Source: Pyropia haitanensis
Taxonomy: Eukaryota; Rhodophyta; Bangiophyceae; Bangiales; Bangiaceae
NCBI GenBank assembly: GCA_008729055.1
Contig: SDUX01000002.1
Coordinates: 372,001 to 436,000 of the forward strand
Direction: 5' to 3'
Length of the DNA: 64,000 nucleotides
Below, one piece after another: positions 250 through 23,333 of the stretch. Each line of letters starts with the position of its first letter. The stretch's first letter is position 1. The position numbers were made by a program, and so were the translations under genes. The notes under the pieces are model-generated. The model worked only from the letters and a program-made list of their open reading frames with translations, did not search any database and was not told the origin of the DNA.

Positions 250-1800
250 AGCGGTGGCGGCGGTGCACAGACAAGGAGCAACAGCAGGCGGCCCGTTAGT
301 CGTGACGCCCGTCGGTTCGGCGGCCGCCCCCCACCACAGCGGGGCCACCCCCCCCCAGCCGCGCGCCGCGCCTCGCCAGCACCCACCCGCCGCTCCCCTT
401 CCCCACACCAGCACGGGAGGAACGGGCAACGGTCACTGCACACACCCCGTGGGCAGAGGATGCCAGCCCCCCCTCACCAACCTCCGCGCCGCCCACCCCG
501 CCCTCCCCCCCCCCACCAAAACAGAGCGCGACAGCCCGTCGCACACGCCGCGAGGCCAGCACGTACCGGCAGCTGCTTCTCCCGGCACAGCGCCGCCTGC
601 GACGCCACCCCGTCGCGCGCGCACTCCACGTAGCGGATCCGCGCAAACGCGTCGGCGCCAAACAGCTGCTTTTGGGCGTAGCAGTGGCTGCACCAGTAGG
701 CGCCAAACATCGTCGCGCCCTGCTCCTCTAGCCGCTTGGCCAGCGACTGCACCGGCCCACCGCCGCACCGCCGCCGCCGCCGCCGCCGCCGGTATCACCA
801 CCACCACCACCACCCCCCCGGACGCGCCAGCGCAGTCCCCCAGCGGGTGGTCAGTCCCCACGGCCGTCGCGGACGGCCGGCAGCAGCAGACCGACCAAAA
901 CGGGCCACTCCCGCAGCCACGAGCACCACCCACCGTCCAGAGCAAGCACGCACGTCAGCGCCGGCGCCCATTTCTGTGGTGGAGGCAGTGTGGAACCCCT
1001 CTTCTCACGTGCTTCCACGCCGCCTCCACTCCCCCCCCCCCCCCACCCCACCCACGCCACCCCTCCCGCCCAGAGGTCACCCCGCCAAGGAACGTACGAT
1101 AGCCTTGCGGTCCGACACGGACGTAATGGGCGGCGGCGCGCTCGGCGGCGCCGCCTTGACCGGCGTCGTCAAAAACACGACCCCCGACAGCACGGCGGCG
1201 GCGACCCCCCCCACCCCCCCAATGCGCGCCGTCGCGCCCACCCCCGACACCGCCCGGCCCACCAGGTTGGTCAGCACAAACAGGCCGCCACACAGCCCCG
1301 CCGACGTCAGGCAGTAGACGCACGGGCTGCGGATGACAAACGCGAGGAGGGACACGAGGTACGCCGAAAAGACCGCCATGGCCGCCGACAGCGCCACCAT
1401 CAGCGGCCGCGTCGCGGCGTCGCGGGCGACAAAGTCCGGGGAGGTGGTGGGCGAGGCGAGCGGCCACCCCGCGAGCGCCGCAAACGCCGCGTACGAGACA
1501 AAGCCAAACAGCGACAGCGGGATGCCGAGGAAGGACGCGTAGGGGCCCGACAGCACGTCCACGCACCCGCGGGTGCCACAAATCGCGGCGGGCGATGAGA
1601 AGGCCTTGGTGGCGGTGAGGAAGGCGGTCTCGAGGGCGCCCAGCAGCGCCACGACGGTCACCGCGCGGCGGGCGGGGAGGAAGGCGGCCGCACGCGCAAA
1701 CGCTTCCGCCGACGGCACGCCGTCGGTGGCGGCCAGCGCGTCTGCTGCTGCCACCGCCTCCGCGTCGGGCGGGGGAGGGGGCGGCGTGGAGGCAGCAGCA

Positions 1801-1835
<35 letters not shown>

Positions 1836-2099
1836 AGGGGACACCCCGCCGCCCTCCCCCGCGGGGGGGAGCGACGGCGGCGGCGGCGCCACCGCCACGA
1901 CCACCCCGCCGCGCCGTGCGGCGCGGCGGGCGCCGGGGCGGGCAACGACGCGGGCGGCGGCCGCCAAGCGGGGCGGCCGCCGCCCAACGGCGGCGGCCCC
2001 AGCGCCGCACCACGGGGCGGCGGCCGCGGCGGGCGCCGCGGCCCGCCCGGCGACCGCCGCGGGCGGCGGCGGCGCAAACGCCAGCCACGGGGCGGCCAT
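1..2099 (-). CDS. LTO1: LTO1-like VKOR-thioredoxin fusion (3' end beyond window)
   Basis: A bifunctional thiol oxidoreductase. In plants and cyanobacteria this family introduces disulfides in the thylakoid lumen, and its VKOR half reoxidises a fused thioredoxin. Three exons are inferred: 2099-1098, 746-567 and 95-1 (open at the edge). Both introns start with GT, end with CAG and keep phase 0. Exon 1 has an Ala/Pro-rich, plastid-targeting-like leader of about 140 residues, then four to five membrane helices. The VKOR loop cysteines are at 174 and 179 (CGTRGC), followed by LSGPYASFLGIPLSLFGF, and the active-site CVYC is at 260-263. Exon 2 carries the thioredoxin motif WCSHC (Cys 353 and 356). 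Exon 3 carries the GYPTWEING cis-Pro region and then PGEADLAGLQAIL. The start is the first ATG of the open frame. Domain order and motifs match LTO1; the targeting is inferred. Confidence 0.93.
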
Positions 2100-3150
2100 G
2101 GTCGGCCGGCGGCGGCTGCGGGGGGTCCCGAGGGGGGGGGGAGGCAGCGGCGGGGGACGGGGGGGAGGGGGGGAAGCAGCGACACGAGGGGAGGCTGGGC
2201 GCGCCAGCGAGGTGCCAGCGTCGGCAGCGGCAGAGCGTTTGCGACGCAGGCAGCGGCAGAGCGCTGGCGAGGTTGGCCGCGCCAGAGAGGTGGAGAGGTT
2301 GGCAGCACCAGCGAGCTTCCGGCGTCAGCAGCGACACGGCGGGGAAGTGCCCCCCGACCAGCAGACGGGCGGGCGGGGCGGGGCGTCGGCGGGAACGTTG
2401 GGGTGGCCAGGGCGCGGCGGCAGCGGACGGCGACAAGCCGGTGGGGTGGAGGGAGGGATCGCCCCCGCGCGGCGCTGGTCGGGGCGGGAGCTGCGCCTCC
2501 CCAACCACAATCTACTTACCAGTTCAGCCCGATTCATTCAAGTCGTCTGATACTGTTGGGGCGGCTCCATTGCAAGAGACAAACGGCAATTGTCAGATAC
2601 GTCCAGATTCCGTCGAAATTCTTGTCGATGCTCTCGCAAAGACCGTCTGGTCTGTTCGCAGCGAGACGCGGACGCCCTGCTGCGCACGCACGCACAGGTG
2701 TGTTTGCTGGCGTGCCCCGCTTCGTACACGCGGATGGTGGACCTCACATTGCACATCAAAAATAGGCCTCTTTCTACAGTACCCCCACTCCGGCTGGTGA
2801 TGACGTACAGTCAATGTGTACAGCAGCGACAGCTTGAGATTGCGTGTGGTTTATCGGGAAACTCGCTCATGTGCGCACGAGACTGGCTTGGGCGCACCAA
2901 GACCGCCCCCTCGGCCGTACGGCAGCGGCCGTCCGCACGGCGACGTGCAGCCAATGGAAAGGGGAATCGGCTTACCGCTGTGGGGGGACCGACCCCTTGG
3001 TAAAAACCCTCGCACTCGCAAAGATTCTCACCCACAGTGATAATGAACATCCGACGATTGCCCGCGTTGCGGCTCGTCGGAGAGGGAGGGGCCGCTGCAA
3101 CGGCCAGCCGCGGGGGGCGCCCCGCGTGAGTACCGCGGTGTTGAACCGTC
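2100..3150. other. Gap between LTO1-like and Fanzor genes; candidate Fanzor 3' non-coding region
   Basis: This gap separates the start of the LTO1-like gene from the stop of the Fanzor frame. 2100-2500 is G-rich and should hold the LTO1-like promoter. About 2510-3060 is clearly less GC-rich than the surroundings and has no gene-like frame. Fanzor and TnpB guide RNAs are usually encoded around and just past the 3' end of the nuclease gene, so 2.5-3.2 kb on the minus strand is where one would be sought. I found no terminal inverted repeat and cannot draw the element's end. Confidence 0.4.
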
Positions 3151-6100
3151 TCACGCGTGGGGTGCCTCCCCGCCACCAGCCGCCGCCGCGCCGCCCCCCT
3201 CCCCGCTCGCCGCGACCAGCGGGTCCGCCGCTGCCCCGCCCGCGCCGCGCCCATCCGCCGCCCCGCCCGTGCGGCCGTTCCAGTCGATCCGCGGCCACCG
3301 TACGTGGGCCGCGGTCCGGAACGGGTGGCACGGGCGCCCGCGTATCCACTGCCACGTGCGCCAGCCGAGGTTGGCCGCCGCCGTCACGTCGCGGTTCACC
3401 ATCCCTCGGGCACACGTCGGCTCCACGCAAACCTTGACGCACCACACCACTGCCTTGCGGTCCGCCCGAAAGACCGGGCCCGCGTGCGGCCGCGGGTGTG
3501 CAGCCGCCCGTGCCGTCGCGGCGTTCTCCGCCTCGGCGCGGCACGCCGCCCGCCGGCGGGCGTACCGCACCGGCGCGCTGCGGTCCCACCACCCGCGCTG
3601 CACGCCGCTCGGCCGGCCGGTGCGGCCGCGCACGCCACGGCGCCGCCCGCACACGCGCGTGCCGCGGGGCACTTGCGGCGGAGACGCGGGCGTCGGGAAC
3701 ACCAGCGCCAGCCGCGTGTGGCAGCCGTCGCAAGCTGCACTCGTGTTGCGCTCGGGCACGTCCACCGTCCAGCACAGGTGGCGCAGGCGCCGCCACAGCT
3801 GCGTCGCCCCGCCGCGTGTCGCCGCGTCGCCCAGCGCCACCGCCACCACCGACCCGTTGACAACCCGCCGCAGACGTCCGCCCGTCAGCTCCCGCGCGAC
3901 GCGCGCCGCAAACCGCCCGCGCTGCAGCACCCCGTACAGCCGCGCCTCGCGCAGCCCGCGCGTCGCCGCCGACCCCCACACCGCCTCATACACGGGCTTG
4001 CAGCGGGCGGCCAGCCACTCGCGTGACGCGACTCGCACCGCTTCCGCGTCGCCCACGCACAACGTCGCGCGCTCCGTCACCTGCTCGGGTGTCCGCACGC
4101 CCGCGGCATCGCCCAGCTCGGCGATGCGCGCCACGGCCGCCGCGCGATGGTCGGCTACCGCCCGCGTCGTCATCCCATTCCCGCTCTCCTCGTGGTACCG
4201 CCCGCGCGACAGGCTGTACACCGCCCCGGGGGGGGGGGGGCGCGCCACCCGCGGCTCGCGCGCGTCGCCGCACGCACTCGCGCCGCCAGTGCCCTAAGCG
4301 CACCGGCGTACGTACCCGCGGCCGCGCGGTCGGCCGTCACTGCTGCCGCGCGGTCCGTCAGATACGCCTCCGCCAGCGGACGCCCGTCGTCCACGTCTGC
4401 CACCGCCATGCCGCGCGTCGCGCGGGGCAGGCACGCCAGCGCAACTCGCACCGCCGCGTGGCGCGGCACCCGCCACCTCCCGCGCCCGGTTGCCGCCAGC
4501 AGCTCGCGTAGCGCCTTGCACAGGTCGACGCGAGCCGTGCGTCGCAGGCGCCGCGCGGCGCCGCGCACGCGCCGCACGCACCGGCGACCTGAACGCGGCG
4601 GCATGACCGCGGCTGCAGCAGCGGGGGGGGGCAACGCGTCTGTGCTGCCGGCGGCCGCCGCTCCGCCGCGTGGCCGCTTCCTGTCCGCGCCAGACCCGGC
4701 ACCCACGGCTTGGCGCTTGCCAGCGGCCGCCTTGGTGGCCACGGCGGGGGGCGTCCCAGCTGTCGCCGCGGCCGCCGCTTCAACCTCCGCCATCTGGCCC
4801 TCTGTCAGGCCGGCCGCAGCGGTGACTCCAGCCTCCACCGCCAGCGCAGCGCGCATCAGCGCCTCAACCGCGACCAGCCTCGCTCGCGCGCATCGGGTCG
4901 CCCACACGCGGCTGCGGGCCGCCCACTGAGCGGCCGTCGGGCCGCTTGACACGGCCGTCAGCACCGTGGCTACACCAGGGTCCGCCGACACCACAGTCAG
5001 CCGCGACACGCCAGCCACGGGGCAGCCTTGTTTTTCTAGCTGCGTGGTGGGTGACCCCGCGACCCGCCGCCGCACGCGCGCCCCATCGCGCCGCCGCTTC
5101 GAGGCAGCAATGTCCGCAGCCTCGGCTTCTGCAGGCGTCGCCGGCCGGGACACCGTAAAGGCCACCGCCACGCCGTTGGTAGTCAGGTTCGCCCCGACAG
5201 AACTCGTTCCGCTGCCGATCGGCCGGCCGGGCAGGCGCGCAGCGAACGCGGCCGCGCCACGGTCCCGCACCGCGGCGCGGAAAGCGACGTCACCAACGCG
5301 CAGGGAGTTTACCAAACGGGTCAGGCGCAGCCGCGTAAACGTGCCGTACATGTGCAGCGGCGCGGACTTGGCGGGGACCAACGCGAACGGGCGGCGGATG
5401 CCCTCGCGTTGCACGGCCACGACAAAGGGGACGTATGCCCACCAACGCGCCACGACAGCGACGTGGCCGCCCGTCGGGAAGAGGCGCGTCGGCCGCTGCC
5501 TCACGGGCTGCACGCGCGCGCGTATCGCAGCGATCGACGCCAGTACCGCCGCGCGCGCCGCGGCGTCCGGCACGGCAGCGACGAACTTTCTTGCGGCTGC
5601 CCCGGTCGGCTCGTCGACGCCACGCGAAAAGCACCTCAGAGCTGCTGCAAACACTCCTCGGCGTCCGTCGCTGCCGCGTGCGCCCACGGCGGGGGGGGCC
5701 GCGTCAGTCACGGCGCCCGCCAGGCCGCGCAGCGCACGCGTCACGCGCTGCGCCGTCGTCTGCGCCAGCCGCGTTACGGTCTGCGTCCACCGCATGCGAT
5801 CGTTATTGCCCGGAAGGTGCTCGTGGCACGGAGAGACGAGGGCAGGTGATAAGTCCCTCAGCGCCATCTCCGCCGCAGCAAGAAGCGTGGGCGCCGCACC
5901 GCGCGGCGGCTTGGCGGGTGGTGGGGGGGGGGGGGTCAGCAGCCGTGTGTATGCAGGGCGACTGAGCCGGTGCTCGCGAGCCCGCCCACACGTTCCGCAC
6001 ACATCCTCCCCGGACAGGCTCCCGCCGAACGCGCCACGGCAGCTGACTGCGTTCGACGCCCAGTTCCAAAAGTCCGTCCACCCCTGCGTCGTTGCCGGCA

Positions 6101-7163
6101 GTGCCGCGTCCCACGCGTGCGCACCAGTCGCCGGCAGCAGTCGGTGAACCGTGTTGACCCACAACAGTCGCAGGCACAGGTCAAAGTGTGTGGCATGGCG
6201 CGCCACCGCCTCGAATGCCGCCGTCAGGCCCGACGCAGCGGCCGCGTCGCCAGGGGCAGGCGCCACCGCGCGCACAACAAACCCCAGCGGCACCGTCACG
6301 GTGTGCGTTACCGTCGCGCGGTTGGCGTACGGATCGGTTGCCGCCACGTCCTCGCCCCGATCGTGCACATGCGGGAGGGACGCGCCACCCCACGCCCTGG
6401 CCGGGCACACCTTGGACCGCCTCGGGTGCGTGCGGCCGCAGCAGTTCTGGCAGGGGGGGGGGGGTTGTGGGCCGGCCGGTGCCGCTGCGCGTCGCGGCTC
6501 CGCCTCTACCGAGCGGCGGGCGAGGCCGCGCGCCGTCGGGCCGACCAGCGCAGCCGCCCGCACCGCTCGGGCGGCCAGCCGTGACGCGTCGACGCCGTCC
6601 GGCGCGTGCGCGGCGACCCATTCGGCTGCAGTGGTCACCGCGGCGGTCACAGCTTCCTCGTCGCGGGTGGCCATGTCAACGACCGCCGTGCGATGCGCCA
6701 CGTCCGTGGTGGCGTCGGGGGGGGGGGGGGGGGGGGGGGGGGGGGCGTCCACCACCGCCGCGGCTGTGCGCAGAGCGGCGACGACCGTGTCGAGGGTGGC
6801 ATCGCCTGGGGGGGGGGCGCGCGCCCGTGCCACAGCCTCGACGCGCGCCAGAAGCAGCCGCAGTCGCCAGCGTTTCACGCGCAGCGCGGCCAGCAGCGAG
6901 TCTAGCTCGTCGGGCGGCAGGGGGGGCGCTTCCTGCGCGTCGCCACCCGCCGCGTCCGAGCCCTCGTCGGTCCCAGCAGTTGACGCGTCCGACGCCTCGC
7001 TCCACGCAGCAGCATTCTCGTCGTCGTCGCCGACACGGACGTCGTCCTCTGACGCCGTGGCCGACGCGTCGCCGCACGCATCGTCGGCGTCCAGGTCGGA
7101 GCCGTGCTTACCTGCGGCATCGTCGTCCTCCAGCGTCGCGCTCGACGCCTCTGTGCCGGGCAT
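3151..7163 (-). CDS. Fanzor (eukaryotic TnpB-like RNA-guided endonuclease), frame broken at a G13 run
   Basis: A RuvC-type nuclease of the Fanzor/TnpB (IS605 OrfB) superfamily, whose studied members cut DNA guided by an RNA from their own locus. The first segment (7163 to about 4240, about 974 residues) has an acidic N-terminus, a CQNCCGRTH...C zinc knuckle, and RuvC-I as VVSADPGVATVLT, with the catalytic Asp codon at 4982-4980. The second segment (about 4240-3151, about 362 residues) carries RGRYHEESG, then VVAVALGDAA, then RuvC-II and a zinc-finger start as VDVPERNTSAACDGCH (Glu codon 3753-3751), and finally RuvC-III as NRDVTAAANLGW (Asp codon 3390-3388). All three acidic residues are present. 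The segments differ by one frame, and the switch falls at 4228-4240, a run of 13 G; one extra base would join them. The ATG at 7163 precedes the acidic region and is the likeliest start. The total of about 1,335 aa is roughly twice usual Fanzor length. It may be intact with an assembly error, or a recent pseudogene. Confidence 0.85.
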
Positions 7164-7445
7164 GGTGGTCCGAGCCGCGCACCGGCGACGCGGCTCGGCG
7201 GGCGGGGGGGGGGGGGGTCGCGGCCGGTCGTCCCTGCCCACGCACGCCGCGTGCGCGCGGAGTGGGAGCAGGTGCAGCAAAGCGCGACGCGGCGAGGGCC
7301 AGCATGCACATCTGAGCATGTGCGGCACCCGCCACGCCTGCCGCCAGCAGCCCCATCGCTGCCCCCGCGACATGCATGCGCGCTGGCCACGGCACGCATG
7401 CGTGTGCTGTGCATCCGCACAGCAGCAACAGCTTTTCTCGATGAC
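7164..7445. other. 5' flank of the Fanzor gene
   Basis: GC-rich, with a G tract near 7204-7217 and no gene-like frame. An open frame continues upstream of the chosen Fanzor ATG to 7373, but its residues are low-complexity. The promoter of the Fanzor gene should be here; I recognise no specific element. Confidence 0.35.
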
Positions 7446-7447
7446 TC

Positions 7448-7530
7448 GGGGGGGGGGGGCGACACAAGTTACCGGGCTTGTGAGTGCATGTGACGATTAA
7501 GTCGTCATATTTTTGGCCCACGGGGTGTGC
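7448..7530 (+). repeat. Double-hairpin repeat, copy A
   Basis: A run of G is followed by two small inverted repeats: ACAAG (7464-7468) with CTTGT (7477-7481), and TGACG (7491-7495) with CGTCA (7503-7507). A T-rich stretch and GGCCCACGGGGTG follow. Copy B at 7565-7650 and the opposite-strand copy at 21691-21768 keep the same order. It is not protein coding. The function is unknown; it could be a transposon terminus or a structured RNA. Confidence 0.6.
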
Positions 7531-7564
7531 GCGCGAAACGTCCACCAATCGCGCACGCCTGTAC

Positions 7565-7650
7565 GGGGGGGGGGGGGGGCACAAGTAGATGGGCTTGCGA
7601 GGGTATGTGACGAATAAGGCGCCATTTTTTTGGCCCGCGGCGTGGGCGCA
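7565..7650 (+). repeat. Double-hairpin repeat, copy B
   Basis: This is about 117 bp downstream of copy A and in the same orientation. It has the same G run, CAAG/CTTG stem, ATGTGACGAATAAG segment, T run and GGCCCGCGGCGTG tail. The second stem is weaker than in copy A because the closing arm reads GCGCCA. Confidence 0.6.
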
Positions 7651-8506
7651 CGCCAGGAAAAAAACCCGGGGAAAAAAAACCTCTGGCAGTGGCCATCCGC
7701 GCGACAGGGCACCTCCTCCTGCATTTTTCTGATCGTGGGCGCGGCAATCCTCGTCCGAAAGGGCCGCCAGGGCATGGCGTCACGGCCCCCTCCAGGCATT
7801 TTTCGGGCCAGTGTCGGCCGTGCACCACGGGCCAGTCCCTGCCGCCGCACTCCCCCCCTCCGTTTGGCGCCAGCCCCCATCCACCCGTCTGTGTGCTTCG
7901 TGCGCGCCCCCGCCCGGATGCGCCCGCCATCGTCACCCTCGGTCGGGCGCGGGCGCCGCGCGGGCGGCGCCGCCGCTGGCGGTGGCGGAGGCGCCCCCAT
8001 ACTCCACTACCGTCGCCGCCCACAGCGACCGCCCGGCGGCGTCCGCGGCGGCGGGCGTCCTCCTCGCCCCCCCCCCCCCCCCCGCGCCCGGCACGCCCGC
8101 CCGCACCGCCCGCACTGCCGTGGCGCCGGCGCGGGGGCGGCGGGCGGCGCCGCCCGCCGCCGCCGCCGCAGCGGCGCCCGCGCCACGGGCCGCGTCGGGT
8201 GGCGACGCGGCCGCGCGGCTGCCCGCGACGCTGCGTCGGCCCCCGACGGTGCGCCAGCCGACCGGCAGGTGGGCGGTGGCGGCGCGCGCCGCACGCCTGC
8301 GAAGGCGCACGCGGAGGCGCCTCCACCCGCCCGCTTTCGTCATCCCACCGCCGCCCTCGCCGCGCACGTCGCGGCCGCGCACCCCCGCCACGCCCGTCGC
8401 TGCGGCTGCCCGCGTGGCCCGTTGCGAGGCGCCGTCGCCGCTGCCCCGCGCCTTCGGGCGACGCGAGTGCGGGCGGCGACGTCCCGCCTGCCACGGTGGC
8501 CGCGCC
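7651..8506. other. GC-rich spacer or upstream part of the next gene
   Basis: Poly-A runs sit at 7658-7680, followed by long open frames on both strands that are typical of GC-rich sequence. One plus-strand frame (the frame of the ORF starting at 7811) is Ala/Pro-rich and could be an N-terminal extension of the gene at 8507. I cannot decide this. Confidence 0.3.
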
Positions 8507-9060
8507 ATGCACCCGCCGCCGCCGCCGCCGCCGCCGCCGGGCGCGCAGTGCTGCCTACCGGCCGCCCCCCCGGCAGTGTCGGGGACCGCTGCGGCAGCGG
8601 CGGCGGTGTTTGCGGGGGTGGCAGCGCACTTCCACGCGCGCGTCGCCCGCGCGCACGCCGCGCGGTCGGCGGGGGCGGGCGGGGGCCGCCCGCAGCGGGG
8701 CCGGCGAGGGGCGACGGCGGGAGCGGGGGGCGACCCCGCCTCGGCGGCGCCCCCGGCCCGCCCGCCGCCGCCGACGCCACGGCCGCCGGCGCGCCGGCCA
8801 GCCTGGACGCCGCGTCCCGGCGGCTGCGCCGCTGGCACCCAGACGTGCGGCGGTCGTTGGGCACCCCGTGGGGGCGGCTCTTCTCGGCAGAGGAGGCGCC
8901 GGGGTCGGAGAGGGGAGGTGGGGGGGCTGTTGCCGGCGCGCGCGGCGGGCGACGTCGCACCGCCGCCTCGATGGCGCTTTGTGTGGCTGTGTTCCGGGGG
9001 AGCCCTTTCTTTTTTGTCTGTTGCGCCTCTGATTATGCCGTTGGGGCGGTAGTGTTTTGA
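8507..9060 (+). CDS. Hypothetical protein with one possible membrane segment
   Basis: Not recognised. From the ATG at 8507 the frame gives a poly-Pro start, then CCLPAAPPAVSGTAAAAAAV (a short Ala-rich hydrophobic stretch) and FAGVAAHFHARVARAH. Between about 8760 and 8800, in C/G-rich sequence, the better frame switches to one reading ASLDAASRRLRRWHPDVRRS then LGTPWGRLFSAEEAPG, with almost all G/C third positions. It ends at 9060. The frame switch may be a short intron or a homopolymer error. The case for a gene rests only on codon bias and low-bias amino acid content. Confidence 0.35.
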
Positions 9061-9061
9061 G

Positions 9062-9318
9062 GTTGGGGAGTGAGCCTGGTTTGGAAGTCGCGCACGTGGC
9101 GGCCGGCCGGCCCAGCAGCGGGAGGCGCAGCGGGATGAGGGCCAGGTCCAGGGCGAGCCCCGGGTCCAGCGCGTGGCCGCCGTCGACCGCGGCAGCGGGG
9201 GGGGGGAGAGAGAGCGCCGCCCCCGTCGCCGCCGCCGTCACGCGGGCCGCCCCGACGCGGGCCGCGGTGCCGCGGGCGGGGCGGCACCGCCGCGAGCGGG
9301 CGACCGGGCGGCCGCACT
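9062..9318 (-). CDS. Possible C-terminal gene fragment ending the rDNA island
   Basis: Minus-strand sequence directly beyond the broken 18S gene reads GGHALDPGLALDLALIPLRL then PLLGRPA with near-complete G/C third positions. Codon bias then decays, and a neighbouring frame ends at a TAA near 9033. It looks like the last piece of a gene whose 5' part is missing. It could belong to the gene broken at the other edge of the island (19.23 kb), but I cannot show that. Confidence 0.25.
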
Positions 9319-11312
9319 GGAAACCAACAAAATAGAGCCCAAGTCCTATTCTATTATTCCATGCTCACATATTCAAGGCATTGGCCTGCTTTGAACACTT
9401 TACTTTCTTCACAGTAAACGGTCGGCCCGCAGGTATAAACGCGCGGAACCAGTCAAGGCCCCATACACCGCGTCCCGACAAAAGGAGACAAACTCCCACT
9501 GGCACAAGGGCAGAAGCCCGGCCCGTGAGGGCGCTCCGAGGTCCGACTACGAGCGTTTTAACTGCAACAACTTTAATATACGCTATTGGAGCTGGAATTA
9601 CCGCGGCTGCTGGCCATTCATACCCGACAACGCTGCGCCCATAAGAGCACATCCAACAATGCCAGGATGGTCGCGATTACGTACACGTGGCTCTCATATT
9701 TGCTGGATGGGGTTCGAACGCTCAGCAGTCAATACAAACGGCCACATGACGCCCCAACGGCAGGCCATATATGACGAAACTGATTTATATATTTTTGGTA
9801 AGTACTCTGCATATTCGGATCGCAGGATGGGGTTGGTCTCTCCTGCGCCCCATTTTGTGCGAGAATGGGGAGCGAGCGGGACCATCCCCATCCTGTTGGC
9901 GACCTGTGAAACGAAATCGGACCAATGGGGTGACTGAAACGTGGCGGTGGACGATCGCGGGCTCGCATCCCAGCTGCTTCTCTGATCCCGATTTGAAGCT
10001 ACATTCGAGGAATGGGGTTGGGTCTTTGTTCTCCCACCGGCGTGAACCCATCCTTCCGCCTTTTCGGCTAGTCTGCGCCCCGTTCTATACAAGTCCTGCA
10101 AGACCGGTTGGGGCACGCCCCAACAGAAATGGGCATCCAACCAGAAGCGCGCACGTGTTCGCTGAAATGAATTATTTAACCATTGGTCCCGACGTTGCTG
10201 GATGTGCTCTAAGACGCTTGGTCGCCTTCCACAGTCCTCCGGGGCGAGCAAAATCCCGTTACTCCTGTGGACTTGGTTTCTTTCCCAGTGGATTGGACTC
10301 TCCCTTAAGCTTGCGCCCACTCCATTAGAGTCTCTGAAGGTTCGCCTTTGCATCTCGCCACGCGGCCACCAAAAGGAGGCCGCATGGAAAAAGCACTCGC
10401 GCTTCCCTGCGGATCAACCCTACCCTTGACGTTTTTACCATCCATGTACCACTACGTACACTGCTGCGTCCTGAACGATTGCTCGCTCTCACCTCTCGGC
10501 GGACCGCGGTAGTCAAAGGCCTGGCGGGCACTCCCCGACAATTTAGAAGTGTATGATGGGGGCTCATTAATTCTCCCAAAAGAAAATAGGTTCCCATCTT
10601 TTGCCTGCTTGCCTTCCACAAGTCACCCTGCTTCCGGAAAGAGACATCTGGCGCTGTTTTATTTTAACGAGGGCTTGACGCTTCACGTGGTGCGCCTGTG
10701 CATATGCGATCCGAGCACGAGGCGAGCAACGAGTGGAACTAGGTTCACCAGACTTGCCCTCCAATGGATCCTCGATAAGGGATTTAAATTGTTCTCATTC
10801 CAATTAGAAGGCCCAAAGGGCCCCCTATTGATATTTTTTGTCACTACCTCCCCGAGTCGGGATTGGGTAATTTGCGCGCCTGCTGCCTTCCTTGGATGTG
10901 GTAGCCGTTTCTCAGGCTCCCTCTCCGGAATCGAACCCTAATTCCCCGTTACCCGTCGACACCATGGTAGACCAATACTCTACCATCGAAAGTTGATAGG
11001 GCAGAAATTTGAATGAGCAGTCGCCAGCACAAGGCCATGCGATCCGACAAGTTATTGTGAATCATCTCAAAGCGCTCTGGAAGGAGCACGATGGTTTTTT
11101 ATCCAATAAATACCACCCTTCGTGAGTCGGGCGTTGCGGCATGTATTAGCTCTAGAATTACTACGGTTATCCAAGTAGTGTGGTTCTCAAAGGAACTATA
11201 ACTGTTTTAATGAGCCATTCGCAGTTTCACGTGTATAAAAGTGTTTATACTTAGACATGCATGGCTTAATCTTTGAGACAAGCATATGACTACTGGCAGG
11301 ATCAACCAGGTA
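9319..11312 (-). rRNA. 18S (SSU) rRNA, 5' half only, interrupted by a group I intron
   Basis: The 5' end is unmistakable at 11312 (TACCTGGTTGATCCTGCCAG on the minus strand). Exon 1 runs 11312-10747 and ends in CTGGT. Exon 2 resumes at 9614 with GCCAGCAGCCGCGGTAATTC and continues through the V4 region to TTGTTGGTTTC near 9319. Homology then stops abruptly and GC-rich sequence begins. The joined rRNA is about 860 nt, against about 1.8 kb for a complete gene, so the 3' half is missing. ETS and spacer lie upstream, to the right. A truncated or orphan rDNA copy and a misassembly are both possible. Confidence 0.95.
9615..10746 (-). mobile_element. Group I intron at SSU position 516, with a long P9 extension
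   Basis: The intron sits exactly after CTGGT and before GCCAGCAGCC, which is E. coli position 516, and it ends in G. Core elements are visible on the minus strand. A Q-like GATCCGCAGGGAAGC lies near 10401-10416. P7 is formed by CAGAGACTCT (about 10327-10336) and AGAGTCC (about 10294-10301). Downstream, AGAGCACATCCAGCAA (10210-10195) pairs with TTGTTGGATGTGCTCT (9659-9644), 15 Watson-Crick pairs plus one G-U, closing a loop of about 535 nt. Such insertions in Bangiales S516/S1506 introns often hold decayed homing endonuclease genes. A 185-codon frame on the opposite strand (9771-10328) overlaps it, but I see no intact His-Cys box. At 1,132 nt it is long for a group IC1 intron. Confidence 0.88.
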
Positions 11313-13620
11313 AATAGGTACATGTACTTTGAGGGAAAAAAAAAAAGGGCGGGAGAGCCAGCCACGCGATGGGCGGAAAATGTCAAAAGGGCAATGCATC
11401 AGCCATCGCAGGCGGGGCGGCACTTCCCTTGGTTTTTTTTTTTTTTCTCTTGTACCAAGTCGCTGGCAAACGGCAGGGATGTGCCTATATTGCAAGGCAA
11501 TCCACGTGCGCCGTCGCCCGCGGCACATCTGCTCAGGCATTTCCTCCTTGTTGCAGGTGCGTCTTTTTTCCGTACAAAAATGATGGATCGTGGGGTGGGC
11601 CAGCAGAGGCCGTTGTCTTGGAAAATCCGCGCGTGACCCCACGACGGGTTTCGTAACGGCGCACCTTTGCTCTCTGCTGAGTTTTTCTTGGCGGTTTTTT
11701 TTTTCTTCCCGCGCTTTTTTTGCCCCTTTTTCCCCCCCCGCGCCATCCCAGCATAGTCAATGCCAACCGACGAGCGGTCGACAGGTCACTTGTGTGAGGA
11801 ATCTTCACACTTGTTCGTTATTTTCCTTCCTCTCCAGTCGAACCGGATGGTACTGCGCAGTCCCCCCAAGTACGAGAGACTGTGCCGACTACTTTGTGAG
11901 GACCCCCCCCCTGTACCCCCACCGCCCGTTCCCGCCACCAAAAAAAAAGGTAACGGTCGGGTTTGTGTGTGGGGATGGCGGGAGACAAGCCACTCACTCA
12001 GAGACGTTTCTTGAGGAGGCCGCCCTTTTTTTCTTATAAAAAAAAAAAAAGGGCACTTCCCCAAGGTATGTATGCGAGGTAAAGGCGCGCGGAGTGAGCG
12101 CCTAAACCTCTTCCATTGTTTTGTCATCAACTGGAAGGTGTACCCCCATGGCAAAACGTTTTTCCCCAAACAAGGTCGTAGCATGGATAGAGGAGCAAGC
12201 AAGGACTTTTTTTTGTCCCCCCCTTGTCCTGTACCTACTCATGCACTCCGCGTATATATGTGCACCTCATATATACTCTTAGAGCCTCAGGCTGTTTTTT
12301 TTTTTGTATCAAAAAAACACGCCAGGCTTGATACCGTCGAAAAAAAAAAAAAAGAGGCCGCGCGAGTCTCAGACAGATGATCTTCTCAAGCTTTATCGGC
12401 CAGAGCCCAAGCCTGGAAACACTAAATAAGAACAGACAGGAAAAAAAAGGCCCCAGCCGGCGTTCCTCCCAAGAGTGGAACGTACACAATACATCATGCG
12501 GCTTTCAGGCGAACACCCATGCGAGTGGCGAAGCTCACACTCTGCATTCTTACGCAAGGGCCCCGCCTCAAGAAATCATACGCTCTAGCTAGGAACTTTT
12601 GTCCCTGCCTGCCTTCCTTATGCCAGACCCAGCTCTGGTCTTTTGCTTGGGAAAAAAGGGACTTCCCTCCCTGCTCCCTCTTTCGACATGGAGAAAAACT
12701 CCCGTTCGGTGCCCTGGGCTAAGGAGCACCTTGAACCAGGCCGTCCACCCGGGAAAAGAGATGGACGGCGCCTCAGAAACAAAAAAAAGGACCCCTTTGC
12801 GCTACACGGAGATATGTCCATAGACGGGGCTGCGACGATACGACGCCCTCCAAGGGAAACGTTAACGCTTCAATATGCGGATTGATACCACAGCCAAGGA
12901 CTGTGATAGCGCGCCCGCTACAACAAATGATACCACGCCCCGGTAGGGGGTCGAGCAGAGCTCCAGAATATTCCCATAGACCGTCACGGGTAAAGATGCC
13001 GAACACCACAAGAACGCACAACTTAAGGATTTCGGCATGGCTAAGCAGCCTCCTCAGAGCGGCACTTGGGGAGGGGACGCCACCCTTCAACCCGCCAGCT
13101 CCCCCGTTACAAAAAACGGCACAACGGTGGTACACCTATCCTCCGTATAACAATACCCCGGTTCCTATGGAAATGACCCCCTTTCTCATAACGGATAGGC
13201 TTATGGCGAATCTCCGCGTTACTAGTATACAGCCTTAGTATACGTTCAGGGGGCAAGCGCTTTTTTCGCAAACCATCAAGACCGGTTTGTGATATCATAA
13301 GGAGACCCGGTTTCCCCAATTCTTTCGTATCGTCCCAACGGACAACCGTCAATGAGGCGAGAAAGGCAGACGGGTAACCAAACCCCTCCCCCGTTTCTCA
13401 TTCACGACGGGTGCCCTACCACAGCTTGGGGCATTTCTACAAGAGCCCCCTTTTTTTTTGCCCAACGAACCCCAACCCAAGCGCAAAAAAAGGGGGCGCA
13501 CACGTGCAGTGGTCTGGTACCAGCGTTGCACTCGTATAGGAAGTCAATACGGAACGATACGGACGGGTCCACAAGGTCATGACGACGGCCTGAGGTATTT
13601 TTTTTTTTTTCCACAGCGCC
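11313..13620 (-). other. 5' external transcribed spacer and adjoining rDNA spacer
   Basis: This sequence lies immediately upstream of the 18S 5' end. GC is far lower than in the flanking genes, and there are many A, T and C homopolymers of 8-15 bases. Open frames are short with no coding character. It must contain the pre-rRNA leader and probably the RNA polymerase I promoter; I cannot place the transcription start. Confidence 0.6.
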
Positions 13621-14090
13621 TGGTGGGGAGGTGAGCGGACCAATGGAACCTTACTACCAAACCCGCATCCAGACAGTGCGGAAAAAAAAAAAAAAAAGTA
13701 CAGGGCGTCCCCAGAGGCTTGCGTCCATCCGAGAAAAAAGGGCACTCATAAGCTGGCGCGAGCGACAGCGCGCACCCTCTTCCCTTTATCCAACCGACTG
13801 GTGGGGAGGTGAGCGGACCAAATATGGAACCTTACTACCAAACCCGCAATCCATGTCGACGGGACAAAAGTCCAAGGGCGACCCCGCCTTGCGTCCTCAT
13901 TGGAGTACCCTTTTTTCTATGAAAAAACACTCATAAGCTGCCGCCACCGCGCGCGCCCTCTTGTTCTTATCCAACCGACTGGTGGGGAGGTGAGCGGACC
14001 AAATATGGAACCTTACTACCAAACCCGCAATCCATGTCGACGGGACCAAATCCAAGGGCGACCTGCGTTGCGTCCTCATTGGAGTGCCGT
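13621..14090. repeat. Spacer tandem repeat, three copies of about 180 bp
   Basis: Copies begin at about 13622, 13800 and 13981 with GGTGGGGAGGTGAGCGGACC, followed by GGAACCTTACTACCAAACCC and a segment ending CTCATAAGCTG...ATCCAACCGACT. Copy 1 is the most diverged and carries a poly-A tract. Copies 2 and 3 are nearly identical over their first 80 bases. Repeats of this size upstream of 18S often contain spacer promoters or enhancers; that role here is inference. Confidence 0.85.
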
Positions 14091-14997
14091 TCTATAAAGG
14101 CCTTCCGGCGTTACTTGCACCACGCGGTTTCCATACCCCGCTGTCCCCCCCCACACCGCTCTTTGTTATCCCAAAGAACAAAAAAAAGCGAGGTGGAGGG
14201 AGCAGACATCACAAAGGGGAGGTATGCCTTTATGGATTTTCCTCTCAGTATATAGAGAGCACAAAAAAGGCATACCAACGCATGCCCCAAAGGGGGGGGG
14301 GGGTTCAGCCACCACACGAGTGGGCCCGAGTCGCCCCCTCCCCCTATGGGAGGACCACACGTACTGTTGAGGCCAACTCCGGATGGTCAGGCCGGAGAGC
14401 AAGGGCATAAAATCCCCTACTACTATGTGCGCCTCTGAGGAGGGGCGGTGGCCATAAAAAGCCGCTACCCCGCCTCCAATACGGGGCCCCTACTATGGTT
14501 GTTTCGGGTCAAGTGGGAGGTCACCCCGTGGCCTAGAAACCATAGTAGAACATGCCAGTAACAGTGGGGTCCGCCAGGCGGAAAAAAACCCCTATCAAAA
14601 TCGGCCCAACGGGCACGCGGGAAGCCATCCCCGGGCTCCTCCAAGGCGCCCCCTAGGTCGGGAAAATGGAGGGCATAGCGGTCCCTAGGCTGGTAGCCTA
14701 CTACCATAGGAAAAAAGCCGGTCTGAAATGGCCCCCTAGGGGCCTGAAACGTATATTCATACTATATCGGGTAGACGACTGATTACAGCCGACGGCGCTT
14801 CAGAAGCGCAGGTGGGGGGTCCCCCACCCACCGGTCTTGGACTCCATTCTGATAGAAAAGGGGTCTCTAGGTCGATACCAAACGGTCCCATACCAAACCT
14901 GGCCCTTGGGGCCAAGCTATCGCGGTCTTGGCTTCACCCCCGTATACTCGTATACCAATGAAGCGCCGTCGGGGGGGTCGGCCGATTTCCGACCTCA
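14091..14997. other. rDNA spacer without recognised features
   Basis: A moderately GC-rich spacer with several G runs and no gene-like frame. A degenerate version of the following 152-bp repeat may begin near 14844, where a similar GGTCTCTAGGTCGATACC segment appears. Confidence 0.5.
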
Positions 14998-15560
14998 GAT
15001 GCGTTTCTGACTAAGAAAGGGTCGCTGAGTCGATACCCGCAGTCCCCGTAGCAAACGGAGCAACAGGGCCAAAGGTATCGCTCGGTAGGGAACCGGTCAT
15101 ATTCCTACCAGGAAACACCCGTCAGGGGGGGTATTCCGATTCTTGGGCTCAGATGCGTTTCTGACTAAGAAAGGGTCGCTGAGTCGATATCTGCAGTCCC
15201 CGTCGCAAACGGAGCAACAGGGCCAAAGATAGCGCTCGGTAGGAATCGCTCATGTTCCTAGAGGAAACACCCGTCAGGGGGGGTATTCCGATTTCCAACC
15301 TCGGATGCGTTTCTGACTAAGAAAGGGTCGCTGAGTCGATATCTGCAGTCCCCGTCGCAAACGGAGCAACAGGGCCAAAGATATCGCTCTGTAGGAATCG
15401 CTCATGCTCCTAGAGGAAACACCCGTCAGGGGGGGTACTCCGATTTCCGACCTCAGATACGTTTCTGACTAAGAAAGGGTCGCTGAGTCGATATCTGCAG
15501 TCCCCGTCGCAAACGGAGCACCAGGGCAAAAGATAGCCGGGGTGGAAGAAAACACCCCTC
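14998..15560. repeat. Spacer tandem repeat, four copies of about 152 bp
   Basis: GATGCGTTTCTGACTAAGAA, followed by AGGGTCGCTGAGTCGATA and CCCGTCGCAAACGGAGCA, recurs at 14998, 15152, 15304 and 15456 (steps of 154, 152 and 152). Each unit ends with GGAAACACCCGTCAGGGGGG. The last copy is cut short after its first 90 bases. Nothing in it is coding. Confidence 0.9.
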
Positions 15561-16257
15561 AGGGGGGCTCCTGCATATGTGAAACACCATCCTTCGTGAT
15601 ATCGGGTCGCAAGACCGATCATCAAAATCTCGTATGAAAACGACCCCCGTAGGGGAGGATACCAGTGAAGCGTATCCCTTATGCCAACATGGTCCTGAGG
15701 GGGGGGGGACATACCCCACCCTATGCATACGGGAGCCTACCCCGATGCTCGACTATCGTCCCTGGTACATGCGTTTTCCTGATGGGGGCACCCTCTCTAC
15801 TGGCGACCCCCCCCTCAGGATGGTGCTGAGGTATAGAAATGAGCTATGCCGCCGAGGCTATGCCGAGGGTGGGTAGCTACGAAAAACCATACCAAAACAT
15901 GCTCCTGAGGGGGGGGGCCGCTCCACGACGGCTATGCCCCCAACAGTGAGGCGGGGCGGCCGCGACCACCCCCCCCCCCAAACAGGCCCAGGAACGCAGG
16001 TTGACCAGACCATGCGTTTCCCGGGCCTGAGGGGGGGTGGGGGCTGCCACGGCAAAGTCGATCCGCCGACCGACCACCACCTGTCCTCATAGTCCTGTGG
16101 GCCCGTTCATACATGACGCGGCCAAGAGGCACAGTTACCGGTCGCCGGAATGGCGGCCTCTCGTGCGTCCTCAGGACCCCCCCTGACGGGGTCAAAAACG
16201 AACCCGGGAATAGAGAACCGGCGTTACCGGTGTCTTAGCCGTGGAGAGGCCTCGGTC
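15561..16257. other. rDNA spacer with CCTGAGGGGGGG-type motifs
   Basis: No gene. CCTGAGGGGGGG and its complement occur several times (near 15693, 15807, 15903 and 16026), giving a loose repeat. Composition shifts toward the TTAGGG-like array at the right end. Confidence 0.5.
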
Positions 16258-17580
16258 GCATTAGCGCCGGGCTGAAATGAAATGGAGCGCATTAAGATGG
16301 GATAGGCGTGATCAGAGTGCAATAGGGGACCATTAGGCCCACTTAAGGCGCATTAAGGGCGATTAGGGACCCATTAGGGGTCATTAGGGGGCATTAGGGG
16401 GTGGTTTAATGAATATTAGGGGGGTTAAGAAGTATTAGGGCCACTTAAGGGTGGGTTAGGTGGGTTAAGGGTGGGTTAAGGGTGGGTTAAGTTAAATTAG
16501 TGTGAGTTAAGATGAGATAGGCGTGATCAGAGTGCAATAGGGGCCTATTAAGGGCCGTTTAAGGCAAGTATGCACCAGTTAAGTCGCCCAATTCAACATA
16601 TTGGGAGGTTTAAGCCGCATTAAGGGTCATTAGGGGTCATTAGTGGTGGGTTAAGAGTGGGTTAATGAAACTTAGTGGGGGTTAAGATTGCTAAGGGTGG
16701 GTTAGGTGGGTTAAGGGTGGGTTAGGGCCACTTAAGGGTGGGTTAATGAATATTAGGGTGAGTTAAGATGAGATAGGCGTGATCAGAGTGCAATAAGGGC
16801 CTATTTAGGGACATTAGGGCCAAGTATGTCCCAGTTAAGTCTCCGAATTCAACATATTGGGAGGTTTGGGACCCATTAGGGGTCATTAGGGGTCATTAGG
16901 GGTGGGTTAAGGGTGGGTTAATGAATATTAGTGAGGGTCAAGGTTGCTAAGGGTGGGTTAGGTGGGTTAAGGGTGGGTTAAGGGTGGGTTGAGGCCACTT
17001 AAGGGTGGGTTAACGAAATTTAGGGTGAGTTAAGATGAGATAGGCGTGATCAGAGTGCAATAAGGGCCTATTTAGGGACATTAAGGCCAAGTATGTCCCA
17101 GTTAAGTCTCCCAATTTGACATATTGGGAGGTTTGGGACCCATTTAGGGTCATTAGGGGTCATGAGGGGTGGGTTAAGGGTGGGTTAATGAATATTAGGG
17201 AGGGTTAAGATTGCTAAGGGTGGGTTAGGTGGGTTAAGGGTGGGTTAAGGGTGGGTTAGGGGCACTTAAGGGTGGGTTAGTGAACATTAGGGTGAGTTTA
17301 GATGAGATAGGCGTCATCAGAGTGCAATAGGGGCCTATTAAGGCCAATTCTCGATGATCAAGGCCCATTAAAGGCCGTTCAGGTAGAAGATAAGGTGATT
17401 AGGGGCACATTAGGAGAAAGTTAGGTGAGTTAAGGGCCATTAGGGGTCATTAAGGGTGGGTTAAGGCACATCAGGCCGAGTTAGGGCGCATTAGGGCCAC
17501 ATTAGGGCGACATTAGGGGTGATTAGGGTGATTAAGCCCCATTAAGGGCCTTTGGGGCCGTACTAAGGCATTTGAGGGGC
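16258..17580 (+). repeat. TTAGGG/TTAAGGG array with 9-11 bp spacing and a higher-order repeat
   Basis: The plus strand is a nearly continuous series of TTAGG(G) or TTAAGG(G) cores separated by 3-5 variable bases, so cores recur every 9-11 bp, about one helical turn. A landmark, GATAGGCGTGATCAGAGTGC, recurs at 16301, 16516, 16772, 17039 and (one base changed) 17306, giving a higher-order unit that settles at 267 bp. The sequence is strongly G- and T-rich on one strand. It is not a simple telomere repeat. Confidence 0.9.
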
Positions 17581-18370
17581 ATTATGGGGTCATTTTAGAC
17601 GTTCTAGACACCCCTGAGGTCGTTTTTCGCGCTCTACAACCCTTTAGACCCCTCTCTGGCAGTCCAGTTGGCCCCCACTCACCCCGCCCTTGGGCTCTAC
17701 CCGCAAAAACCCCCTCCTAGGGGGGTTCTGGAGGGGGTCCCCAGGGACCCCCAAACGACCGGGGGACCGGTCCAACCGGGGTTTCCGCCATCGTGCATCC
17801 CACTGAGGAGCCCTCCATCGGTTTTGTCGAACCCGACTTTATGGGTTGTGTTGGTACGTGACATGAACGACAACCGCCTGCCTGTCTTCTGCAATAAGAC
17901 ACCACAAGGCACCACGTCAGGGCTCAGGAGTGACCAATGTACAATGTTCGAACCAAAACTTGGTCAGGGCAAGTCGATGGTGCGCATCCACTGGGAAAGC
18001 AAGAAATTCGGTGTGCAAAGGTCTGGAACGCCCGTTATGGCACCGTAAAGGCGTATACCCCCGCTTTTGGCACCTATACGGGCCTTGCGTTGCCGCATGA
18101 TGTCCGATGCTGACCGGACCTGGCATGGAGGTCCGTACAGGTCATGCGCAGAAGGTACAGGCATCAGATCCAGAAACGGACACGATCCCGAGTCACTGTG
18201 GGTGGAGATATACCGCAAATCGGCCATATTGACGCTTCCACGCCAAGTACTAGACGAGGTGATAACCGTTTGACACGAAAGTGCGTGCATCAGACGCGCC
18301 GTTAAACGAGAATAATTTGGTGTCCAGACATTTTGACTTGGGACGTGTCTTTGAGGCCTAATAGAGCGAC
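17581..18370. other. Non-repetitive spacer between the two TTAGGG-like arrays
   Basis: About 800 bp of mixed composition. The longest frame (plus strand, 17668-18048) has no recognisable domain and no codon bias like the genes of this window. I do not recognise 28S or 5S rRNA here. Confidence 0.5.
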
Positions 18371-19228
18371 TTTTCCTCTAAAACCCTTAAATTAAGGGTT
18401 TTTAGGGCCATTAAGGGGTCATTAGGGTGCAGTAGGGCCGCATCAAGGGTGGGTTAAGGTGACTAAGGGTGGGTTAAGGGTGGGTTAGGTGAAATGAATG
18501 TGGTATAAGGAGCATTAGGAAGGATCAAGAGCCCATTAGGCCTCGTTTTAAGGGCAATTCTACGACTAAGTGCCTGTTTAGCGTCATTAAGGCCTCATTA
18601 GGGCCTCATTAGGCCACTTAGGGGAGGGTTAAGTAAACGTTAAGGTGATTAGGGGTACATTAGGGAGATAAGGGGGTGGTTAGGTGGGTTAAGGGTGGGT
18701 TAGGGGTGGGTTAAGGTCGATTAGGTGAAATGAATGTGGTATAAGGATCACTAGGGAAGATCAAGCGCCTATTAGGGCCCGCTTTAAGTCCAAATACACA
18801 ACTAAGTGCGTCTTTAAGGCCATTAAGGCCCGATGAGGGCCATATAAGGCCACTTAGGGGGTGATTTGGCTGAACTTCAGCAGATTAGGGGCACATTAGG
18901 GTGATTAGGGGGTGGTTAGGTGGGTTAAGGGTGCGTTAGGGGTGGGTTAAGGTCGATTAGGTGAAATGAATGTGGTATAAGGATCACTAAGGAGGATCAG
19001 AGGCCGATTAGGGCGCATTATAAGTCGAAATCCACAACTAAGTGCCCGATTAGGGCCATTAAGGCCCCATTAGGGCTACATTAGGCCACTTAGGCGGTGA
19101 TTTGGTTAAAGCTAAGGTGATTAGGGGTACATTAGGGAGATTAGGGGATGGTTAGGTGGGTTAAGGGTGGGTTAGGCGTGGGTTAAGGTCGATTAGGTGA
19201 AATGAATGTGGTATAAGGATCACTAGGG
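18371..19228 (+). repeat. Second TTAGGG/TTAAGGG array with an exact 236-bp higher-order repeat
   Basis: The same 9-11 bp spaced cores appear, organised by a different landmark, GAAATGAATGTGGTATAAGG, starting at 18491, 18727, 18963 and 19199: three steps of exactly 236 bp. The array stops inside a fifth unit at about 19229, where extremely GC-rich sequence begins without transition. Confidence 0.9.
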
Positions 19229-20255
19229 AGCCTTCCGCGCGACGGCGCGCCACCCGTCGGCGGGGCCCGCCCCCCCCCCCGCCCGCGCGCCCGGCGCCAC
19301 CCCCGCCTCCAGCGCCGCGAGGCCGGCGGCGGCCAGCGGGCGCCCGCCGACGGCCGCCCCCGCCAGCACGTCCGCGGCGGCCGCCACCGCCACGCCACCG
19401 CCGCCCCGGCCGCCGCCACCGCCGCCGACGCCGCCGCCGCGGGCTGCGACGGCCGCCAGGGCGGCGACCGCCGCGGCGGCGGCGGCCACCGCGTACGCCC
19501 CGTCCGCGGAAACCGCCGCCACCACCGCCGCGACGGCGCGCAGCGACGCCGCCACCGCCGCGGGCGGCGGTGGGGGCGCCCCCCCCGCCGCCGCCGCCGA
19601 CCGCGCCACCGCCGCCGGCAGCCGCAGGTCCGCCCCCGCGTAGTACACCACCGGCGCGAGGGCGTCGGCCCAGGTGGCGGCGGCCGCCGCCGCCGCCGTC
19701 GCGCCCTCCCCCCCCCCCCCTTCCCCGCCGCCGCCGCCGCCGCCGCGCGGCGGACCAGCGCAGGCAGCGCGGCGGCGCCGGCGGCGGCGGTGGCGGCGGC
19801 GGCGGCGCCCCCCCGGGGCGCTCGCGCCAGCACCGCGGCGGCGAGCGCCGCCCACGCGGCCCCGTCGGGGGTGGCGGCGGCGACCGCCACGCGCGGCACC
19901 ACCGCCGCCACCCGCACGGCGGCGGCGGGCGGCAGCGCCGCCGCCACCGCCGCCGCCGCGGGGGCGGCGTCGCTTCCACCGCCGCCGCCGCCGCCGACGC
20001 CGCCGTCGACGCCGCCACCGCCCGCCGCCGCCCCCGCCGCCCCCGCCCCCGCCCCCGCCGGCAGAAGCAGCGCCGCGACGAGGCGGCGGCAGGCGGCGCC
20101 GCCGGCGGCGGCGGGCGGGGCGGCCGCCCAGGCGGCCGCCCAGGACGCCACCGGCGCCGCGCTCACGAGCGGCGACAGGTGCGCCCCCGCCGCCACGAGC
20201 AGCGCCGCCGCGCGCGCAAGCGGCGGCTCCCCCGCGCCCGCCGCTACCGCCGGTC

Positions 20256-20294
<39 letters not shown>

Positions 20295-21690: not shown

Positions 21691-21768
21691 CCCCCTCGCG
21701 GGTCAAACATATGACAGCTTATTCGTCACATGCCGTCACAAGCCTGGGTACTTGAAGACCCCCCCCCG
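21691..21768 (-). repeat. Double-hairpin repeat, copy C
   Basis: Read on the minus strand, this has the G run, CAAG(8)CTTG hairpin, GCATGTGACGAATAAG, closing GTCA arm, and TTTGACCCGCGAGGGGGG tail of copies A and B near 7.5 kb. The second stem keeps TGAC/GTCA although the bases between differ. It shows that the element is dispersed and not only a local duplication. Confidence 0.6.
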
Positions 21769-23331: not shown

Positions 23332-23333
23332 TA

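Follow-up and report, generated by a model that had tools for sequence, protein, structure and literature searches.

A mobile element with a giant, probably Fanzor1-like gene in the red alga Pyropia haitanensis

The window analysed here, a 64,000-nucleotide stretch of the genome of Pyropia haitanensis (GenBank assembly GCA_008729055.1, contig SDUX01000002.1, positions 372,001 to 436,000 of the forward strand), contains a gene for a Fanzor-like protein of approximately 1.33 kaa (thousand amino acids), in which a sequence-only reading had recognized a Fanzor RNA-guided nuclease. The gene lies on the minus strand at window positions 7163-3151, and its coding sequence is divided between two frames. 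Frame A (7163-4170) contains the N-terminal part, a CCHC-like knuckle and RuvC-I, and holds its register as far as a poly-C run. Frame B (4293-3151) contains the RuvC-II glutamate, the zinc finger and RuvC-III, and ends with a TGA stop codon at 3153-3151. The catalytic aspartate of RuvC-I belongs to the motif SADPG (DPG; GAC codon 4982-4980), the alternative RuvC-II glutamate (E-alt; GAG codon 3753-3751) is placed within PERNTSAACDGC, six residues upstream of a CxxC motif, and the catalytic aspartate of RuvC-III belongs to NRDVTAAANLG (NRD; GAC codon 3390-3388), all on the minus strand. The knuckle, CQNCCGRTHPRRSKVC, is seen in the translation as CX2CX4HX6C (6405-6452, minus strand), and relatives show the same pattern. 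The RuvC residues had been described as complete and in Fanzor order; the motifs and their coordinates are indeed present, but the residues are divided over two broken frames.

The frame break is located at a run of 13 C on the minus strand (4228-4240). In copies L009, L010 and L011 this run is exactly as long as in the window (for L010 it was taken from the run list, a finer expression having no match there), and the C-terminal 380-codon frame is separate in all four group-1 copies. The homolog P0004, which comes from read assemblies and has 6 member sequences, is continuous in frame across the poly-C position. Since the 13-base run is found in all four group-1 copies and P0004 is continuous, either the break was inherited or it reflects a systematic error. 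The window's open reading frame (ORF) contains seven runs of at least 8, several of which vary in length among copies. Unless assembly or sequencing has introduced an error at the poly-C run, the window copy is probably not active.

The features given for Fanzors by Yoon et al. 2023 (PMC10711439) include DPG and a glutamate six residues ahead of the zinc finger, and both recur in the relatives of the window protein. In alignment A6, the RuvC-I aspartate is kept in all nine rows that have a letter at this site, E-alt in 10 of 12, and the RuvC-III aspartate in 8 of 9. The two misses at E-alt are a lysine in the truncated L034, which is a true exception, and a misaligned N-terminal piece of L035, while the miss at RuvC-III is P0002, in which the frame is lost. 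The first CxxC of the zinc finger is present in every row having letters, and 81 of the 758 well-filled columns are invariant. The distant relative P0008 (1347 aa), which is 33-37% identical to the window's groups, contains DPG, E-x-N-[TS]-S-x2-CxxC and NRD in this order, as do L028, L016 and P0003. When three family members were each shuffled 20,000 times, a loose form of the signature, DPG-x(100,520)-E-x6-CxxC-...-RD, turned up in 0.06-0.14% of the shuffled sequences. The D/E/D triad is thus more than a chance match, and the DPG, the repositioned glutamate and the relatives in Pyropia yezoensis support the claim that this red-alga-like genome encodes a catalytic signature of the Fanzor type. 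The CX2CX4HX6C knuckle is found in all four main-group rows of A7 that extend to it (L028, L016, P0003, P0002), and P0008 and P0011 contain two knuckles, CX2CX4HX4C and CX2CX4HX6C; Pfam zf-CCHC gave a weak match to L035 alone (E 0.12). The ratio of nonsynonymous to synonymous substitution rates (dN/dS) was 0.29-0.47 in six comparisons that had sufficient changes, three of them having a dS near 1, and a seventh comparison contained two changes in all. The long ORF is under purifying selection. A divergent Fanzor fragment in L034 (2132-3997, minus strand) has the catalytic glutamate replaced by lysine and a foreign C-terminus.

The profile searches gave matches to PF07282 (TNB) that were all below the cut-off (E 0.015-0.87) and lay on the E-alt/CxxC stretch. 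Such matches were obtained for two of seven members of set A1, three of six of set A5, and 2/5 and 1/8 in two further sets, the sets overlapping, while neither of the window's own two protein pieces matched this family in Pfam. Competing matches were equally weak: a rubredoxin-like zinc ribbon in P0013, covering its E-alt stretch (E 0.05, sub-threshold), BES1_N elsewhere in P0005 (E 0.066, slightly better than TNB at 0.073), and, also sub-threshold, DUF6707 and HTH_23 in Pfam and an ectoine hydrolase in NCBIfam. The top profile match to Fanzor that the sequence-only reading had looked for was not obtained, and none of the equally weak competing matches refutes a Fanzor identity. The only relatives in the protein database were sequences from read assemblies and proteins of Pyropia yezoensis annotated as "hypothetical" (P0005, P0006, P0010, P0011, P0012, P0015), each search having scored the approximately 8000 candidates with most words in common. 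A viral scan returned pattern stretches, none of them a relative, and a search of a phage collection found no relative either.

Several results weigh against a Fanzor assignment. Profile searches of the PDB returned nothing relevant, and the single-piece searches of Pfam, NCBIfam and PDB returned nothing of use; the profile comparisons as a whole included no Fanzor1 sequence as a positive control. The alignment with the TnpB protein InsQ (IS609) in hhalign had a probability of 1% over 17 columns and was not significant. Structure prediction, which had been proposed as a check, gave two AlphaFold models, one from the single sequence and one from a 16-row alignment, both unusable (predicted local distance difference test, pLDDT, 39.9 and 37.7). 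The second half of the zinc finger, CX4C, is incomplete in L035 and L019 and lost with the frame in P0002. The distance from the RuvC-I aspartate to [TS], approximately 365-450 residues including a low-complexity insert after RuvC-I, lies outside the D-X(125,275)-[TS][TS] rule of Bao and Jurka 2013, and the stretch from E to D is also long, 120-134 residues. Because its D-to-[TS] spacing is outside the rule, the protein is filed as Fanzor-like and as a probable divergent Fanzor1. The sequence support for a Fanzor assignment is limited to the signature and the weak profile matches, and nothing refutes it; the protein is probably a Fanzor1 that is divergent, of double size and provided with a CCHC-like knuckle in its N-terminal part.

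The gene is located in a mobile element of 20.49 kb (2971-23462, minus strand), 5'-GAAGC ... GGTAAG-3', with its left end at 23462 and its right end at 2971. The left end (23432-23462, minus strand), GAAGCTACACTCATTCGAC followed by GTGGGGGGACCG, has the general form GAAGC-N14-GTGGGGGGACCG, and the right end has the form CGGTCCCCCCAC-N3-GGTAAG. The two have a 12-bp inverted match, set 19 bp from the left and 9 bp from the right end of the element, the 5' base is G, and there are hairpins at both ends. The right arm upstream of the ORF spans 7164-9314, and the left arm (19235-23462, both minus strand) is 99% identical to positions 454-4683 of a 14.7-kb group-2 element, which contains a second left end, of group-3 type, at its position ~6823. 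Left ends are of two types, one of which is also found within group-2 elements. The right-end pattern occurs 36 times in the genome (34 exact; none for the reversed control), and the left-end pattern 54 times at no more than two mismatches (39 exact; one for the reversed control). In the eight insertions for which both flanks were read, no more than a single base is duplicated at the target. A purine precedes the left end in 19 of 20 cases (omitting L052, in which no left end was found), and a pyrimidine follows the right end in 24 of 26. All 26 counted right flanks are distinct; this count omits L018 and L021, which have lost the right end, and L031, L037, L040 and L041, which have other terminal letters. 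L031 and L041 have one right flank in common, so that the right flanks do not differ throughout the genome, which slightly lowers confidence in the overall explanation. The element is mobile, with precise ends and insertion between a purine and a pyrimidine without target duplication.

The Fanzor-like gene matches at least 40 places in the genome, ten of which are near-complete matches in stop-free frames of at least 1380 codons. The group-4 copies are near-identical and six of them have stop-free frames of at least 1380 codons, which suggests recent activity. In the ORF-deleted derivatives L042, L043 and L045, the left region is joined to the last ~280-325 bp of the element, and L044 has the last ~180 bp in common. 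The sequence-only reading had taken the gene to stand alone, with no transposase beside it. The second part holds as far as tested: no transposase was found among the ORFs of the element that were looked at, and Pfam recognizes no domain at E 0.01 in six ORFs of the group-2 left region. Such a lack weighs against a transposon and would fit a stand-alone, domesticated Fanzor gene, but the 40 or more related places, the ends shared between copies with differing flanks and the ORF-deleted derivatives refute the first part and make domestication very improbable.

Some further observations concern the copies. Most of the last ~900 bp of the element (window ~3900-2971), which includes E-alt, the zinc finger, RuvC-III and the 3' module described below, is 96-100% identical to L016, and the upstream ORF is only ~60-80% identical between groups 1 and 2. 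This mosaic points to a recent exchange of a 3' module holding the end of the nuclease and the putative guide RNA together. A nested long terminal repeat (LTR) retrotransposon, with an ORF of 1180 aa that looks reverse transcriptase/integrase-like by eye, is inserted at different points in two Fanzor copies (L024 1473-5985; L026 1-4513 of the reverse complement). The constant 3' ends and varying left limits of the copies had raised the possibility of 5' truncation as in long interspersed nuclear elements (LINEs), which was dropped because several of the left limits were nested insertions, as in L024 and L026, and true left ends were found. At G000 C9:5253008-5253437, at the end of a ~6.2-kb group-2 match, there are two short Fanzor matches in stop-free frames reported as 16,709 and 16,738 codons. 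Another family, L072/L073, matches this element solely over the initial ~100 bp of the left end (92%) and begins with TAAAC; L073 may represent a shortened form of a few hundred bp.

Between the stop codon and the right end lies a conserved, covarying structured module of approximately 186 nt (2971-3156, minus strand), a putative omegaRNA scaffold as well as the transposon end, for which the flank from 2970 downwards would be the putative guide. Alignment A4 of the module contains ten right ends from several subfamilies in 203 columns, omitting near-identical copies, among them L012 and L017, as well as L039 and L035, the last being too divergent. The structure inferred with RNAalifold has 42 pairs. 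Compared with shuffled alignments, more cells are paired (94.0% vs 88.3%), more pairs show two-sided changes (9 vs 5.7, reached in 3 of 500 shuffles), more cells have a two-sided change (22 vs 8.9), and the covariation score is higher (0.210 vs 0.124, reached in none of 500); when the structure was slid along the alignment, the score was at most 0.095 and at most 52% were paired. Shuffles of this kind overstate the support for related sequences. Two aspects count against the structure: A4 includes close pairs and is shallow (effective number 1.67), which lowers confidence, and one of the five measures, further pair types, showed no excess (20 vs 19.1). The helix that closes on the last bases of the element has two-sided changes in seven of its nine pairs, and the hairpins away from the element end are nearly invariant. 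The 186 nt of the window fold with a z-score of -2.92, and none of 200 shuffles was equally stable. When 20 bases of the right flank in the window, taken from the second base onwards, were searched for in the genome at no more than two mismatches, the single match was at their own site.

With its position immediately behind the nuclease ORF and its end at the end of the element, the module lies where an omegaRNA would be expected, and the flank would then be the guide. Alternatively, the module might serve as a single-stranded transposon end for some transposase and nothing else, and the protein might be a nuclease or an accessory transposition factor that is not RNA-guided. This would agree with the module structure taking in the inverted match to the left end, with its retention in the ORF-deleted derivatives, and with the other family that has just the first ~100 bp of the left end in common. 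However, an omegaRNA would be expected to begin at the stop codon and to have nearly invariant hairpins at a distance from the end, as this module does, and the protein retains the Fanzor active-site signature. We consider this alternative unlikely.

The two arms of the window element are separated by an insert of ~9.9 kb (9315-19234, minus strand) that includes ribosomal DNA (rDNA). From 9315 to ~11312 it holds 18S sequence, from the 5' part of the gene, together with a match to a group I intron that is below threshold, and the rest, to 19234, would be spacer. Positions 4-605 of the 18S model align at 11309-10699, the intron match is at 10593-10277 (24.4 bits vs a threshold of 50), and the further 18S down to 9315 is weak to Rfam, yet it matches the 18S of L025. 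After the intron match, the 18S region contains a repeat of ~567 bp (9644-10210) with inverted ends (TTAGAGCACATCC...); many copies of it in the genome are 98-99% identical, one of them directly after the right end of the Fanzor element in L009. Both insert junctions recur at C9:5.876-5.900 Mb, with different outer sequence on both sides. In the group-4 copies L025 (at 2732) and L027, rDNA is joined to the element at another 18S position, and at C40 (~152.1 kb, G000) the 18S is cut at a third position, three break positions in all, joined to GC-rich sequence. The 18S copies at C9:4.249 and C3:0.564 Mb continue to the 3' end. The 18S junction at 9315 had been considered as the left end of the element and as an 18S target site; both readings were dropped on account of the left arm beyond the rDNA and the unbroken 18S copies elsewhere.

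Insertion of rDNA into the element, followed by movement of both together as one unit, explains these data best. The 20-kb form could instead be a segmental duplication or an assembly artefact. Just two loci have both arms plus rDNA, a third (C9:4.35 Mb) has no left arm among the matches listed, and the comparison between the two rDNA-bearing loci covers the junctions and not the middle of the insert (window 12001-19234). Both junctions are nevertheless common to the two loci, while the left and right flanks diverge exactly at the element ends, and this makes a duplication or artefact rather doubtful. Outside the element, the window contains another ORF (1077-2324, minus strand), which may be VKOR-like, judging from its cysteine pattern.

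These results point, with somewhat better than even confidence, to a giant Fanzor1-like nuclease of red algae, probably Bangiales, that is borne by a transposon and is present here as a copy with a broken frame. In the proposed mechanism, the 3' module would be transcribed as an omegaRNA whose scaffold ends where the element ends, and the first ~15-20 nt of the flank would serve as guide. The Fanzor-like protein, directed by this RNA, would cut the empty allele or sister chromatid at the insertion site, and repair would then copy the element back, as proposed for TnpB and Fanzor and discussed in PMC10432273. Movement itself would be carried out by a transposase in trans, probably of a single-strand or rolling-circle type.

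The best lead for the mover is a Helitron2-like rolling circle, because Fanzor1 elements of that kind are found in Chlamydomonas (CRe-1,2,3; PMC3627910). A Helitron2-group element moved by RepHel in trans, which is compatible with the Fanzor1-like explanation given above, would account for the hairpins at both ends, the asymmetric inverted matches and the lack of target-site duplications, and there are two Helitron_like_N matches in the genome. On the other hand, the inverted matches lie at other distances (19 bp and 9 bp) than those described, the 5' base is G rather than the T of the related TAAAC family, and no RepHel was found within an element, both Rep loci being ~10-43 kb from Fanzor copies. 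On balance, a Helitron2-type mover is a reasonable possibility, with slightly less than an even chance. The two Helitron_like_N Rep genes are located at L030 and G000 C9:6366434-6368062, the latter of which looks decayed, and the element ends were not linked to either locus.

We put forward tentatively, as a whole that is more doubtful than not, a fuller picture of double-size red-algal Fanzors with gag-like CCHC knuckles. They would reside in a single-strand or rolling-circle element that targets purine|pyrimidine sites and uses its right end as omegaRNA as well. This one alga would then provide some two dozen guides re-programmed by nature, several ORFs of full length, and a composite in which part of an rDNA unit was captured and moved. 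One Fanzor1 family was listed for the red alga Cyanidioschyzon merolae in 2013 (Table 1 in PMC3627910), which weakens the earlier claim of a new lineage. No paper joining Fanzor with Porphyra or Pyropia was found among the open-access papers that were searched, and a Bangiales Fanzor family seems to be undescribed there. If the Fanzor interpretation is correct, it extends the Fanzor architecture in size, RuvC inserts and the CCHC-like knuckle in economically important seaweeds, and offers a genome in which every insertion displays its own putative guide. The benefit of Fanzor to the transposon, re-copying into the empty site, would then be testable in strains with and without an insertion.

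Among known systems, the IS200/IS605 elements with TnpB also have a nuclease with a structured 3' module at the right end and insert without target duplication. They differ in that no TnpA was found here, and InsQ (IS609) showed no significant similarity in hhalign. The Spu-1 elements and their ORF-less "ghost" copies resemble the present element in that ORF-less derivatives retain the ends and some copies contain Gypsy-type insertions, but they have 30-nt inverted repeats and a locus of ~2.1 kb, as given in PMC10432273, in contrast to the short subterminal asymmetric inverted matches and the 14.7-kb full group-2 element here. As described for the Helitron2 group (Bao and Jurka 2013; PMC3627910), there are hairpins at both ends, asymmetric inverted matches and complete copies without target-site duplication, and non-autonomous members of that group likewise contain Fanzor1 as a passenger, with extra sequence captured in some copies. 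However, its asymmetric terminal inverted repeats are placed 0-2 bp (5') and 20-30 bp (3') from the ends and its 5' base is T, compared with 19 bp, 9 bp and G here, and no RepHel was found in our element. The Fanzor1 proteins (SpuFz1, GtFz1, PpFz1, CMe of Cyanidioschyzon merolae, and CRe-1,2,3 of Chlamydomonas) are mostly of 600-700 aa (PMC11423790) compared with 1322-1408 aa here, and no significant profile match was obtained. The distances from D to E (364-449 residues) and from E to D (120-134) are also longer than the 158 and 65 residues in SpuFz1 (D383/E541/D606, PMC10432273). The N-terminal CCHC-like knuckle or knuckles are listed as a further difference, as features of the present proteins and not from a comparison with known Fanzors. 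Similar to Fanzor1, the present protein has the DPG of RuvC-I, the glutamate six residues before CxxC and the RD of RuvC-III, its gene is borne by a transposon with a conserved structured 3' end beside the ORF, and an insert within the RuvC domain is known from the FRI domain of PpFz1 (PMC11423790).

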